Origin: an uncultured Clostridia bacterium
GTDB lineage: Bacteria > Bacillota > Clostridia > Christensenellales > UBA1242
Length of the DNA stretch: 42,228 nucleotides
Direction of reading: 5' to 3'
Assembly (NCBI GenBank): GCA_930990515.1
Contig: CAKNPS010000007.1
Coordinates: 1-42,228 of the forward strand
The notes under the pieces are model-generated. The model was not told where the DNA came from, did no database searches, and saw nothing but the letters and a program-made list of their open reading frames with translations. Shown piece by piece: positions 8,808 through 38,219 of this stretch. Position 1 is the stretch's first letter, and every line of letters begins with the position of its first letter. Both the position numbers and the translations under genes were made by a program.

Positions 8808-11636
8808 ATGGCAAAGTTTGATTATTATAAATTGACCGACGACTCTCAAAGAAATGTGGATACATTATTAACAGCTTTAGATAAATTTAACACAGAAAAA
8901 GGAGATGCAAGTTTTTCTTCTAAATGTGTTGATATTGAAAGTATGGGGTTAGGTTATAGAATTAGTCAAAGAGATCTTCAAGCAAAAATTGATGATCCAG
9001 CTTATTCTCAAAAAGTTATCACATTAACTTCAGGTCTTACTGGGGACTCAACACAACTTTATGCTTTTGGTAAAGATTATCCGGTTTCAGAACTTAGAGG
9101 GCAATCCTTTGTTGTAGATAAAAATGGAAAATCTTTTGTTGTTATTGGCGTTAATAGTGCTTCTGCAGATCCAGGTTCTCCAACTCAGTTGGAAGTTAGA
9201 GGTTTAACTGGTAGTATGGCAGATTTAAATAATTTATCAAGAGAAACTTCTTCATACACAAAAATCAGAGACTATACAGATCCATCTAGAGGTTTAATTA
9301 CAAGAGAAAACATATATTTTGTTGGTAATTTAGGAAAAATTATTGGCTCGAGATGTCCTAAATTGGAAAACGAACCAATAAAAGATGTTTATGGTTGCTT
9401 TGATTTACCTGTATCAAGCAGAACTATTGTTTATGGTATGGGAAGAAAAGCCACAAAAAATGCTTACTTTGATGCAAAAAGAAGTCAGAAAAAAATGGCT
9501 AAAGGTAAACCAGTAAGAAAAGGTGCTCCGGTTCTTAATGCTGACATTGCACAATTAATTTTTGTTAGAGATAGAGCAAGTGAAAAGGGAGTCTTAGATA
9601 TTTTTATCAATATTAATCCTAATGCTTCAACTATAAGATATGATTATGACCCAGCAACTGGTAAGTTAATCGATGCTATGGGAAATCCTCTTCCATTTGA
9701 AGCTTTTACTGATTCTAGACAAAATCCAGGAACATTATTTAAGGTTTCTCTTCAAGGAATTAAAGTTCTTGATGATAACCATGTTGCATTAAATCTATAT
9801 GATGCAACAACAGATACTGCCCGTAAGGGAGAACATCCAAGAAGAGTTATTTTAGAAACTGATACTCAACTCATTAGAGTATTGCAAGATGCAATTGCAC
9901 ATAACTCAACAAGAGATGGTTTTAAAACTGCTTTTGCTCCAATTTTGAGTGGACTTTCTTCTACAGAGAAAAAATCTGTTGATAATTTAAATAGAGTTGT
10001 TAATCGTAGTATTGCTGATAGGGCAAGAGTTGCAAGAGGGGAAATTACTGAAGCAGAATCAGACCAAAAAGGTTTCTTTGATAAAGTTTCTCCAATGCTT
10101 AAAACCTTAGGTGAAAAAATTTGGTCAATTGTCAAAGGGGGGCTTCTTTTCTTAGGTGGTGCTGCTCTTGGTGCAGGATTGACAGCGGGTGCAGGTGATA
10201 TTGATGTTGCTGCAAATTCAGATAAGGCAGAAGAATATGCTCAAGGAAAAGCGACGACAAAAATTGTTAGAACAGCAGAAGATATTGAAGAAGCAAATGC
10301 TGCAAGTTATAATGAATTAGCATCAAGACTTGTTATGGCAACAACCTCAGGAAAGAATGCAAAAACAACTTTAACAACCAAAACTACCGATAATTCTTCA
10401 ATCGTTCTTGATGGTTTTATGAAATATTCTTATAGCGGTGATGGAAATGAAGGAACGGTTACAATTGAACCTGGTAGAGCATCAATTATATCAAAAAACG
10501 ACTTTAATGATTTGGTAACATCTGAAGAAGTTGCTGATTCTGTCGCTCCTTTTGGAACAAACTATTCATTTAGTGCAATCGGTGGAAAGGGAAATATATA
10601 CAAAAGAGAAACCCGAATCGGTGCTGTAAGAGCTTTGGCATCAGAAGTTGCAAAAGAAGTTTCTTCACTTGAAAAAAGAGGGCTTGAACTCCCAGAAGGA
10701 ACAGTTATATATCCTAGCACAAGTGGTGACTTGACCAGTGAAAGCCAATATATTAGTGAAAGAGAAGAAATGGGTGACCAATATGCTACTGAAGTTGCGA
10801 AGGCTTATACAGATGCTTATACAATTTCTTATACACTTTCAAATCAAGATAACCAACATGATGCTAATAGAAATCCTATTCTTCCTGAAGATTATGAAGA
10901 AATTGAAGATGGGCAACATTATTACATCAATAATGAAACATTAATTAGCACTGTAAGGGATATTATTGGTGCTACTGATGCACAAATTGAAACAATTAAT
11001 GTCGTTCAACCAAATGCAGATGGGCAAGGAATTATCACAGTTTATGCAACATCAAATGATGGCGCTAATGCTCATGAAATTTCTATTCTGATTGATGATG
11101 CTGTTTCAACCACAAAAGATGTTTACACTGCATTACAAAATGCTTCAAAAGAATATAGTAGAAGCTCAATTTGTGAAGATTTTGTTTCTGCCGAAAGTGT
11201 CCTTAGCCAATTTAAAATCAACTCAAAAAGATTAAATACTTATATGGCAAATGAATTTGGAACCAGAGTTGGAAGCGGAACCACTTATATTTCAGCAAAA
11301 CCAGATGCAACAAAAAATATTAATGAATATAGTTTAAGTATTCTTTATGTTGGAGAAAATGGTGTTACTTCAACAATTGTCGATAGCATCAAATTTAATG
11401 GAACCAGTGTTCAAACAGACAATGTAATTCAAACAAGTGCATTGGTTGCTATGTATAATGGTTCTACTCCATCAAGTTTTCCATCATACAAAATTTCAAT
11501 TGATTCAAATAGTGCAGTATATCAAAACCAAGGAGAAGTTTATGTTGCTCCTGATCTTGAAATTCCAGAAGAAGAAAGTACTATAACAGCAAGCACTGTA
11601 AGACATAAATCAACAGATGATGGAAGAAGTAAATAA
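8808..11636 (+). CDS. Large orphan protein, 942 residues
   Basis: I do not recognise this protein. There is no signal peptide. Residues 1-435 are mixed alpha/beta and look soluble. A basic patch lies near 213-238 (GRKATKNAY, KRSQKKMAKGKPVRKG). A single glycine- and alanine-rich hydrophobic segment at about 439-465 (GGLLFLGGAALGAGLTAG) could be a membrane helix. The rest is Ser/Thr/Asn-rich and acidic, with the beta-rich look of extracytoplasmic repeats. A topology with an N-terminal cytoplasmic half and an exported C-terminal half is possible. The gene has a consensus promoter, strong ribosome binding site and its own terminator, so it is a single, probably abundant product. Codon use is AT-rich and uniform like its neighbours. 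Confidence 0.85.
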   Translation: MAKFDYYKLTDDSQRNVDTLLTALDKFNTEKGDASFSSKCVDIESMGLGYRISQRDLQAKIDDPAYSQKVITLTSGLTGDSTQLYAFGKDYPVSELRGQSFVVDKNGKSFVVIGVNSASADPGSPTQLEVRGLTGSMADLNNLSRETSSYTKIRDYTDPSRGLITRENIYFVGNLGKIIGSRCPKLENEPIKDVYGCFDLPVSSRTIVYGMGRKATKNAYFDAKRSQKKMAKGKPVRKGAPVLNADIAQLIFVRDRASEKGVLDIFININPNASTIRYDYDPATGKLIDAMGNPLPFEAFTDSRQNPGTLFKVSLQGIKVLDDNHVALNLYDATTDTARKGEHPRRVILETDTQLIRVLQDAIAHNSTRDGFKTAFAPILSGLSSTEKKSVDNLNRVVNRSIADRARVARGEITEAESDQKGFFDKVSPMLKTLGEKIWSIVKGGLLFLGGAALGAGLTAGAGDIDVAANSDKAEEYAQGKATTKIVRTAEDIEEANAASYNELASRLVMATTSGKNAKTTLTTKTTDNSSIVLDGFMKYSYSGDGNEGTVTIEPGRASIISKNDFNDLVTSEEVADSVAPFGTNYSFSAIGGKGNIYKRETRIGAVRALASEVAKEVSSLEKRGLELPEGTVIYPSTSGDLTSESQYISEREEMGDQYATEVAKAYTDAYTISYTLSNQDNQHDANRNPILPEDYEEIEDGQHYYINNETLISTVRDIIGATDAQIETINVVQPNADGQGIITVYATSNDGANAHEISILIDDAVSTTKDVYTALQNASKEYSRSSICEDFVSAESVLSQFKINSKRLNTYMANEFGTRVGSGTTYISAKPDATKNINEYSLSILYVGENGVTSTIVDSIKFNGTSVQTDNVIQTSALVAMYNGSTPSSFPSYKISIDSNSAVYQNQGEVYVAPDLEIPEEESTITASTVRHKSTDDGRSK

Positions 11637-11642
11637 CAAAAT

Positions 11643-11672
11643 AAAAGGACTTAAGTTTTAAGTCCTTTTTTA
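11643..11672 (+). terminator. Terminator of the 942-residue orphan gene
   Basis: AAAAGGACTTAA-GTT-TTAAGTCCTTTT stem followed by further T residues, seven bases after the stop codon. Confidence 0.9.
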
Positions 11673-11734
11673 TTGTTACAGAAAACCACGGGATAGTCCC
11701 GTGGTTCAAAAGAGGTTAACCTTTACATAAAGAT

Positions 11735-11789
11735 ACCTCCTGTGTTAAGATATCTTCGTAGTCTACACTAAATATTTAACACAGGAGGT
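11735..11789 (+). promoter_or_regulatory. Leader hairpin hiding the tnpA ribosome binding site
   Basis: A perfect 14-base inverted repeat (ACCTCCTGTGTTAA, 11735-11748, with 11776-11789) folds the AGGAGG at 11783-11788 into a stem. IS200 elements are known to repress transposase translation through such a leader structure. Confidence 0.8.
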
Positions 11790-11796
11790 TTTTGTC

Positions 11797-12252
11797 ATGC
11801 ATGACACAAATAGTTTAGCACATTCGACTTGGAATTGCAAGTATCATATTGTATTTGCCCCTAAGTACAGAAGAAAAGTATTTTTTGGAGAAAAGAGAGT
11901 AGAAATAGGAGCAATTTTAAGGCGATTGTGCGAATGGAAAAATGTAAATATTATAGAAGCAGAAGTGTGTAAGGACCATGTACATATGCTTGTAGAAATC
12001 CCGCCAAAACTTAGTGTGGCGGGATTTATGGGATATTTAAAAGGGAAAAGTACAGTACTAATATACCAAAGATTCACAAATCTAATGTTAAAATATAGGC
12101 ATAGAGAATTTTGGTGTACAGGGTATTACGTAGATACAGTTGGAAAGAATACGAAAAAGATTAAGGAGTATATCGCGAACCAGTTAAAAGAAGATAAACG
12201 GATAGAACAGTTGTCAATGCAAGAATTAGTGGACCCGTTTAAGAAAAAGTAA
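11797..12252 (+). CDS. tnpA: IS200-family Y1 transposase TnpA
   Basis: 151 residues, the normal length of the Y1 HUH transposase that excises and inserts the element as single-stranded DNA. The HUH motif is DHVHM (His61, His63) and the catalytic tyrosine is in the YxxxQ motif YIANQ (Tyr125, Gln129). ATG 11797 follows AGGAGG by 8 bases. The frame is intact. Translation is probably repressed by the leader hairpin at 11735-11789. Downstream, 12253-12320 holds further short inverted repeats near the right end. Confidence 0.95.
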   Translation: MHDTNSLAHSTWNCKYHIVFAPKYRRKVFFGEKRVEIGAILRRLCEWKNVNIIEAEVCKDHVHMLVEIPPKLSVAGFMGYLKGKSTVLIYQRFTNLMLKYRHREFWCTGYYVDTVGKNTKKIKEYIANQLKEDKRIEQLSMQELVDPFKKK

Positions 12253-12380
12253 AGCGGTTCGCGATTCGCGGAGTAGGCTACGCGTTTACGCGCCCGCTAG
12301 AACAAAGGGTTTTACCCTTACTTGAAAAACCACGGGTTTTACCCGTGGATTTTTATTTTGTTTAGGGCTTTAAAAGTTAG

Positions 12381-12530
12381 TATAAACTATGTGATGTTAA
12401 AATTTAAGCAAGTTAAATTTTAATTTTGCTAAACGCAAAAACCCAATAAATTGTGTTCATCACAGTATGTATGACCATCAGCCTCACTCTTGCAAGCAAG
12501 TTCGGCTTCCGATAATATAAGTTATTTGTA
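12381..12530 (+). repeat. Structured dispersed element, copy 1 (candidate ncRNA)
   Basis: 150 bases sharing three conserved blocks with a minus-strand copy at 38064-38219: TATAAACTATGTGATG at the start, ATGTATGACCATCAGCCTC in the middle and GTTCGGCTTCCGATAATATA at the end. A closing stem pairs TGTGATG (12390-12396) with CATCACA (12458-12464). Inside are a perfect 11-base hairpin (TTAAAATTTAA, 12397-12407, with 12413-12423), a TTTTGC/GCAAAA hairpin (12424-12440) and a CAAT/ATTG hairpin. A variable CTTGC/GCAAG stem lies between the last two conserved blocks. TTGTTT and TATAAA with 17-base spacing overlap its start. The element may be an RNA or a mobile structured repeat. Confidence 0.7.
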
Positions 12531-12558: not shown

Positions 12559-13194
12559 TTATAAATGATTTATTATTGATTTAACTTCATCCAACAATTT
12601 AGCAATAAGATAGCCATCAATAGCTGCATGATTTACTTGTATAGAAACATTAATCCATCGTTTTCCTTTTTCGTTTATTTTCATTTTGTCAAAACTAATG
12701 TGTGGAACGAAAGAGTTTCGTTGAACATCTTGTGGGTGCGTTATATGTGTAAATTCAAACCAAGGCGTGCAAGAAATATAGGCAATAACTTGACTTCTTC
12801 TGGCGTTAGCTGGCAAAGGTTCAGTGAAGGTGGTTTGAGTTTGTAATTTCTTTTTAGTTTCGTTGCAAAATTTTTCGATGTCTGAATAATATCTGCTATT
12901 TATAATTTTAAAAATTTCTTCATCTTGTTTTTTAACGCATATATTGGCAAATTCGCAATCTTCAATCACAATTTTACCTTTAATAGAACGTATCATAAAT
13001 TCTTCGAATTTTAAAAGTGCTGTATAAAAGATATGGCACATACAAAAATAAAAAGACAAATTTTTAGATTTTGCAAATTCATAAACTTTTGACACTTCTA
13101 AAGGTGTGCAAAGTGAGATTTGTGGAATATCAAATTGATAGTATAAGTTGAAAATATCTTTGCGATTCCATGTTTCTAAATCAATTTCTTTCAT
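12559..13194 (-). CDS. Chloramphenicol acetyltransferase-family protein
   Basis: 211 residues, the standard length of type A CAT. The family active-site motif HHxxxDG appears near the C-terminus as NHAAIDG: the catalytic His and the Asp-Gly are kept, while the preceding His is Asn. The conserved N-terminal region (WNRKDIFNLYYQF) and the central FTHITHPQD, FVPHISFDK stretches fit the fold. CAT proteins are acetyl-CoA dependent trimers; chromosomal variants often act on unknown substrates, so antibiotic resistance should not be assumed. ATG 13194 is chosen because AAGGAAG precedes it; the frame is open to 13245. It has its own promoter and is convergent with the structured element at 12381. Confidence 0.85.
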   Translation of the reverse strand: MKEIDLETWNRKDIFNLYYQFDIPQISLCTPLEVSKVYEFAKSKNLSFYFCMCHIFYTALLKFEEFMIRSIKGKIVIEDCEFANICVKKQDEEIFKIINSRYYSDIEKFCNETKKKLQTQTTFTEPLPANARRSQVIAYISCTPWFEFTHITHPQDVQRNSFVPHISFDKMKINEKGKRWINVSIQVNHAAIDGYLIAKLLDEVKSIINHL

Positions 13195-13213
13195 AAAACT
13201 TCCTTTTGATATT

Positions 13214-13241
13214 ATCATACTATAAAAATAAAATTTTTCAA
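13214..13241 (-). promoter_or_regulatory. Promoter of the acetyltransferase-like gene
   Basis: On the minus strand TTGAAA (13236-13241) and TATGAT (13214-13219) are spaced by 16 bases, with the start about 20 bases before ATG. Confidence 0.6.
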
Positions 13242-13261
13242 ACAAATTTTAAAAATAAACA

Positions 13262-38063: not shown

Positions 38064-38219
38064 TTATATTATCGGAAGCCGAACCAAGCACAACTTTAGT
38101 TGTATTTGAGTGAGGCTGATGGTCATACATATTATGTGATGAGTGTGCACTAGCACACAAATTCGATAGAATTTATTAAAATTTTATGATAGTAAAATTT
38201 TAACATCACATAGTTTATA
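38064..38219 (-). repeat. Structured dispersed element, copy 2 (candidate ncRNA)
   Basis: 156 bases, the minus-strand relative of 12381-12530, starting at the base after the glnS stop codon. The three conserved blocks are the same. The closing stem is longer here (TATGTGATG at 38204-38212 with CATCACATA at 38133-38141). The second stem is again a perfect 11-mer but with a changed sequence (TTAAAATTTTA, 38193-38203, with 38176-38186). The other hairpins are AAATTC/GAATTT, GTGTGC/GCACAC (38143-38158) and ACAAC/GTTGT (38090-38103). The stems occupy the same positions as in copy 1 with different sequences, which points to selection on structure. Confidence 0.7.

Follow-up and report, generated by a model that had tools for sequence, protein, structure and literature searches.

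Does a sequence that keeps its fold while its letters change have to be an RNA? The question is posed by a stretch of 42,228 nucleotides from the genome of an uncultured Clostridia bacterium (below, the window), in which an earlier note had pointed out two copies of a structured element and had left two options for it, a functional RNA or a DNA element recognised as a folded single strand. This gene-less element of about 140 letters from a gut Clostridia group does keep its fold while most of its sequence changes, and the family to which it belongs points rather to the second option.

Two Copies of a Structured Element in the Window

Copy 1, delimited by sequence comparison with its ends set from the family boundaries, occupies 12381..12520 on the plus strand and is of type a with a spacer of class 1. 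It begins with a 5' R arm (TATAAACTATGTGATG, 12381..12396, its boundary taken from 66 copies without a 5' neighbour), followed by a spacer that carries three hairpins, a, b and c (12397..12457), by an L arm that is the inverse of R together with the left internal loop (12458..12480), by a near-invariant core found with the core pattern search (TCACTCTTGCAAGCAAGTTC, 12484..12503), and by the 3' end of R (GATAATATAA, 12511..12520), which forms a direct repeat with the 5' end, all on the plus strand; the core domain matched by our model R1 spans 12460..12525 on the same strand (E 1.4e-16). Copy 2, also of type a, lies on the minus strand (38064..38219) and has a spacer of class 2 and a long apical stem.

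The observation of a two-copy element is real. The alignment of both copies with short flanks, identical in 116 of 204 columns, confirmed the identity of the three shared blocks, and the hairpins between them are of unlike sequence with pairing kept (TTAAAATTTAA/TTAAATTTTAA vs TTAAAATTTTA/TAAAATTTTAA). The hairpin before the last block is CTTGC/GCAAG in copy 1 and corresponds in copy 2 to a longer stem containing ACAAC/GTTGT, and the closing arm is longer in copy 2, as described. The proposed boundaries held for copy 2 (38219-38064, minus strand), but copy 1 stops at about 12520 (...GATAATATAA) rather than at 12530. The gene context had to be corrected: directly 5' of copy 1 lies not the gene for a 942-residue orphan protein but an IS200 transposase gene (11797-12252), and glnS, taken to be plus-sense, is a minus-strand gene and so shares the sense of copy 2. 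A position 3' of a gene is true of both window copies and is no general rule across the family.

The IS200-type element (11660-12360, with the Y1 transposase and with end hairpins recognised by eye) ends just before copy 1, and a relative of it broken by stops was seen elsewhere (G000:C2:133661). Adjoining copy 1 on the other side is a chloramphenicol acetyltransferase-like gene (12559-13245, minus strand; Pfam CAT), which matched four NCBIfam CatA models below their cut-offs. The 942-aa protein (8808-11636, plus strand) had no Pfam or NCBIfam match at E 0.001.

A Repeat Family With a Constant Core

The genome of the window (1,177,379 bases, 1.18 Mb, in 10 contigs) holds six copies of the element, recovered as seven BLAST pieces and as six matches to model R1. 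The further copies that were to be sought in relatives exist: BLAST found matches in 10 of 41 genomes (its own and 40 relatives), every one from the same genus, and model R1, some rows of which derive from these genomes, detected the family in 38 of the 61 genomes sampled from the genus. In a sample of the order, 13 of 297 genomes were matched by R1, namely 10 of the 22 family genomes listed and three weak cases outside (E 6.7e-5 to 5.8e-4); in this search the repeat barely extends outside its taxonomic family.

Elements of otherwise unrelated sequence have in common the core TCACYCTTGC-NN-GCAAGTTC. This 20-nt pattern occurs in 27 of the 61 genus genomes and its reversed control in 0 of 61. 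A scan of genome contigs with the core pattern retrieved at least 117 stretches, by title mostly metagenome-assembled genomes of uncultured Clostridia or Firmicutes; seven that appeared unrelated by title or context (L048, L055, L089, L096, L107, L113 and L149) were left out of the counts of the 4-bp stem, targets, array strand and array identity and kept in the structural scan. Across 118 sources the latter gave 137 matches, against 2 when the sources were mononucleotide-shuffled once (among the matches listed), a control that is generous because 117 of the 118 sources had been pre-picked by the core pattern.

In line with the view that this is no known RNA family, Rfam returned for the window ten tRNAs and no other family at gathering score. 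Over 17 element loci and up to E 10 there were 15 matches, of which four were tRNAs and 11 lay far below gathering score, some of these over elements (best non-tRNA E 0.0088, 29.6 of 50 bits). Searches confined to openly licensed full texts found no description of this repeat family, and copy 1 had no match in phage and plasmid records. Viral contigs yielded nine stretches (eight of near-identical context and one different), with the context of the element in none by eye.

Upstream of a XerS-like gene (L224) lies another palindrome (GTCATCCTGAG..) whose reverse strand also shows TCACT..TTC; this palindrome may represent an additional branch of the class. At L248 (G013:C16) two core domains stand 60 bp apart as a direct repeat without the three-hairpin spacer.

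Unit Architecture and Fold

Each unit runs from the 5' R arm over hairpins a, b and c to the L arm, the core, and R again. The core sits between two internal loops, and arms and hairpins are swapped among subfamilies with pairing retained. Units measure 140-155 bp in the window, and the period of arrays is about 110-200 bp. Type-a units carry an AATATAA-like direct repeat on both sides, seen with some departures in 66 copies without a 5' neighbour and 65 without a 3' one. No terminal inverted repeat was seen by eye: the ends, ACTATGTGATG.. and ..TTCCGAT, are flanked by AATATAA and are not mutual inverses.

The predicted fold of L, core and R is a hairpin made imperfect by two fixed internal loops and by an A.A mismatch noted by eye within the arm helix. 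We assessed this structure on a gapless alignment of fifteen representatives (A2), 12 of whose 15 rows had been picked for the tested helix geometry, which favours it. It consists, nested from the outside, of a 6-bp arm helix, an internal loop, a 4-bp stem, an internal loop UCACY/UUC and an apical stem. The claim of conserved unpaired blocks with covarying stems is borne out: 86.2% of cells are paired, compared with 72.0% in shuffles and at most 41.9% when the structure is slid along the alignment, and two-sided changes affect 35 cells, where shuffles give 11.5 (none of the 500 reaches 35) and sliding gives at most 12. Other measures are weaker, with nine pairs showing two-sided change (reached by 36 of 500 shuffles) and 20 further pair types (113 of 500). 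The arm helix is just 68.9% paired over all 15 rows, and the apical stem, for which window copy 2 has a longer alternative, is invariant in A2.

In type-a class 2 and in three tRNA-Val units of unlike sequence, pairing of R with L closes three adjacent hairpins with almost no unpaired junction letters, followed by the core hairpin. Measured against 60 dinucleotide shuffles per unit with RNA parameters, their folding z-scores range from -6.0 to -11.4; window copy 1 takes the same shape with a z of -1.6, and four other units reach -3.8 to -10.0 with folds that are more elaborate or different. The hairpins of the two type-a spacer classes are unlike in sequence. As no structure came out of automatic consensus folding for class-2 units, the type-a stems were set by hand.

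Dispersal, Empty Sites and Arrays

The element looks mobile, its units being dispersed. In genome G000, units 98.6-100% identical lie at unrelated sites whose flanks have an identity of only 0.40-0.57. One G000 unit has a 99.3% identical counterpart in G292, a genome labelled as another genus (g19), compared with 73-78% for matched glnS ends within the genus; this case is soft, since about 55-60 bp of the 3' flank of the G292 unit are common to copies in G341 and L059, and a larger shared segment or a mis-binned contig may lie behind it. The type-a copies L271, L272 and L059, from different genomes, have about 55-60 bp of common 3' flank past the unit, which may reflect a compound unit of greater length, a common site of insertion or the transfer of a segment. 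Four further type-a copies in different records (L077, L128, L153 and L207) have the same 3' flank, with three type-a cores near tRNA-Arg, and these are probably a single inherited insertion.

Sites without the unit were found as well. Joining the flanks of 57 queries gave 12 spanning rows, five of them self matches, three from true empty sites and four weak or ambiguous. Two orthologous unit-free junctions resulted, one from L101 and L202 (the same G048 locus retrieved twice) compared with L072 and the other from L078 vs L148; in G046 the gap from glnS to the next gene is shorter. Among 25 tRNA-Val loci that share one exact 3' end, in 24 of 61 genomes, seven have a strict core within 220 nt downstream, one has a variant and 17 have neither. 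The variant (L362, G019:C4) has TTCGTC/CTCCTCG loops and a longer stem without the TCACY/TTC loop; besides this occupied tRNA-Val gene the same genome has an empty one (L354), and the letters that follow it match the ATAGCGTT that follows the unit. At L350 and L353 the core is present though the L arms failed the arm pattern. At the empty sites, divergence is too great for a target duplication to be placed to the exact base.

The units also form tandem arrays that run one way. Among the matches listed, strict cores number 188 when distinguished by their 120-nt context and make 42 adjacent pairs less than 260 nt apart, all 42 on the same strand and 39 spaced 110-159 nt. Simple duplication is insufficient to explain these arrays, because 12 of the 20 type-a pairs (among the matches listed) join unlike units of 61-69% identity. 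The mixed type-a pairs are, among the matches listed, 11 times in the order class 2-then-1 and once class 1-then-2, a bias in view of which some type-a units may move or descend as dimers.

No cargo or encoded partner was seen within units when matches to the type-a 5' end were followed to the next strict core. There were 175 such matches, redundant over overlapping loci, and 105 of them had a strict core beyond, 103 within 110 nt; the other two, with cores at 3.2 and 4.5 kb, were by eye one unit with a deviant core and one place without a unit. Most of the 70 matches without a following strict core are, by eye, L arms on the reverse strand.

Target Sites at tRNA and 5S Genes

Cores other than type a often lie behind stable RNA genes. 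Among the matches listed, 27 of 51 are found at most 500 nt downstream and on the same strand of tRNA-Val (19), tRNA-Glu (3) or 5S genes (5), one lies upstream of tRNA-Arg and 23 are near no tRNA or 5S gene; type-a cores are near such genes in 12 of 116 cases and in mixed orientation (among the matches listed). These counts treat units of one array and orthologues separately. The R of tRNA-Val and tRNA-Glu units is a copy of the 3' end of that very tRNA and L is its inverse, and hairpin a of tRNA-linked units resembles a terminator. In a subfamily of G005, G042 and G068 the arms resemble the neighbouring stretch TTATCCACA, which we take to be DnaA-box-like.

Functional RNA or Folded DNA

The expanded family allows the two options to be compared. 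Type-a stems, set by hand, contain 33 G-T vs 42 A-C cells, and the 4-bp stem contains 15 vs 13 over all subfamilies (among the matches listed), compared with 43 vs 9 in the acceptor and T stems of tRNAs from the same loci (Fisher test against this control, with cells that are not independent: p 1.7e-5 and 0.008, respectively). An automatic class-1 fold gave 66 G-T vs 3 A-C cells, but two positions account for 58 of the 66, and they belong to a different helix, which we think is wrong. By crude ORF calls, genes are co-oriented with the element in 30 of 59 cases upstream and 24 of 59 downstream, which is no bias; 22 of 96 cores fall within an ORF call, and these calls are probably spurious. The reading as a functional RNA is weakened because both a gene-orientation bias and an excess of G-T over A-C are absent, and we regard it as less likely; a folded single strand of DNA would fit better, so that the earlier interpretation is partly supported. 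The missing G-T excess could also stem from copies decaying unselected or from template-switch correction of hairpins.

A structured RNA acting in cis or in trans (a 3' UTR element or a small RNA) would account for the covariation, for the folding of 8 of 9 units at least 3.8 SD below shuffles and for the terminator-like hairpin of tRNA-linked units. The identical copies at unrelated sites and the lack of an Rfam match speak against it in addition to the counts above, and we consider it distinctly unlikely. Template-switching during replication, which would perfect hairpins and copy short tandem units without any dedicated enzyme, agrees with complementary changes that show no excess of G-T intermediates and with L arms that mirror the adjoining sequence; it would nevertheless require the 20-nt core to be delivered to every site, and it is hard to reconcile with identical units at unrelated sites and with mixed arrays, which leaves it little probability.

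Two kinds of known enzyme might move the element. A REP- or BIME-like palindrome mobilised by an IS200/RAYT-type Y1 transposase comes to mind, as the element is palindromic, extragenic and multi-copy and has an IS200 beside window copy 1. We rejected this IS200 as the partner: its gene and copy 1 are about 130 bp apart, yet a strict core was found in just 1 of 8 Y1 loci, some of them cut by contig ends. Against rejecting IS200-type enzymes counts that all 6 of 6 Y1-positive genomes carry cores (p 0.005). However, 21 of the 27 core-bearing genomes had no Y1 match, among them G073 and G075, the richest two (G075 being 79% complete), the window IS200 has, by eye, its own end hairpins, and arrays here are head-to-tail only, an arrangement described as rare in PMC3733652, with head-head as the main dimer; a Y1-driven origin thus seems very improbable to us. 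Site-specific recombination by a XerS-like tyrosine recombinase, in the manner of the IMEX-like use of Xer, would suit type a, in which a direct repeat of about 7 bp resembles an overlap region, and also the use of tRNA 3' ends as sites. PF00589 is present in 60 of 61 genomes, and G005, with nine model matches, has a single PF00589 match, a protein nearest to XerS and below its cut-off (191 vs 267 bits). A recombinase that is near-universal cannot, however, explain the patchy distribution of the element, which also makes the profile uninformative as a clue to the partner, and no common dif-like motif was seen by eye beside nine such genes; we hold this route to be unlikely. A link to reverse transcriptases was rejected, these being present in 4 of 9 element-bearing vs 3 of 7 element-free chosen genomes (p 1).

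Comparison With Known Mobile Repeats

An integron cassette carries at its 3' end a folded inverted-repeat site, attC, has its ends inside this split site, and joins unlike units head-to-tail; the R boxes of attC are RYYYAAC and GTTRRRY. The element resembles it in all of the former respects, but its units have no ORF, the core is conserved here in place of the arms, and boxes of this consensus were not seen by eye in the arms. The sole typed tyrosine recombinase lies far under the integron-integrase cut-offs. With MITEs the element has in common that it is short, gene-less, multi-copy and flanked by a direct repeat at both ends, whereas the terminal inverted repeats that accompany target duplication in MITEs are not visible by eye and the arrays are strictly oriented. 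Derivatives of IS200/IS605 and the REPIN/RAYT system (GTAG REPs) are alike in that recognition may plausibly rest on a folded single strand, but the element has no consistent Y1 partner: Y1 was found in only 6 of 61 genomes, even if all six have cores.

Parallels also exist within the order. Palindromes of the form TTCGTCRC..GYTCCTCG were found in 74 of 248 genomes; G204, G144 and G258 have 104, 48 and 23 matches vs 0-1 in the control, and many of the single matches elsewhere look coding. They have the same internal-loop module as the element, and G144 also has the TCACTGCGTTC loop at the homologous place, in the loop order of the element (TTCGTCGC-TCACTGCGTTC-GCTCCTCG), while their tips are shorter and their arms are other than those of the element. 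The pattern was found in 0 of 17 genomes of the window's family, probably reflecting internal loops that differ there by at least one letter, and a 41-nt relative of the order palindrome had no match in phage and plasmid records. We do not claim a phylum-wide class, because TTCGTCGC..GCTCCTCG in 11 of 348 genomes of a phylum sample is not above the control.

CGTC-tagged REPs are extragenic palindromes of many genomes for which, as reported, no dedicated transposase was found and the mode of movement was left open (Di Nocera et al., 2013; PMC3733652). The same paper gives a REP size of 20-40 bp and, for the CGTC type, stems of 8-9 bp that start with A-T pairs, loops of 4-5 nt, and dimers that are mostly head-head, with head-tail rare or negligible (PMC3733652). 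An unpaired CGTC is also present here, within the internal loop TTCGTC of several subfamilies, but there it is followed by a 4-bp stem instead of being terminal before an 8-9 bp stem starting with A-T pairs; our units are 110-200 bp long with variable arms, a conserved apical module and one-way arrays, in which 42 of 42 adjacent pairs are on the same strand (among the matches listed).

A Probable Non-Autonomous Folded Cassette

We consider it probable, at roughly 60%, that the element is a non-coding, non-autonomous mobile DNA cassette whose folded strand is recognised by a trans-acting enzyme. The proposed enzyme would recognise the strand folded as L-core-R and exchange strands within R at the TATAA-like site, by which the unit could enter a target resembling R or the R end of a resident unit, the latter producing a head-to-tail array. 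Units whose R is a tRNA 3' end and whose hairpin a is terminator-like could go in at the tRNA concerned without damaging it. On this reading the element would act as folded DNA and not via an RNA product, and the cassette would work in a way analogous to integron cassettes or REPs, identity with either not being claimed. The 23 of 51 non-type-a cores with no tRNA or 5S gene nearby and the spacer-less pair of core domains at L248 count against the cassette reading.

It is tempting, if distinctly more tentative, to speculate further that these are gene-less cassettes built of a three-hairpin DNA junction closed by R and L and of a fixed recognition hairpin, and that an exchange of both arms, matched to each other, around a constant 20-nt core might direct them to other conserved places in the chromosome (tRNA 3' ends, 5S ends and a DnaA-box-like region). 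The enzyme could possibly be the mover of the related palindromes of the order, and of a kind undescribed or new to this role.

Covarying hairpins in two copies, this family warns, need not imply a functional RNA; here the comparison of G-T with A-C cells on the expanded family points away from RNA. The unit ends of the family are sharp and some copies are recent; empty sites exist, the arrays are oriented, and the core stays constant while the arms follow their targets. The family offers a tractable case, perhaps related to the CGTC-tagged REPs, in which the question of what moves such palindromes becomes testable with a short list of host proteins.
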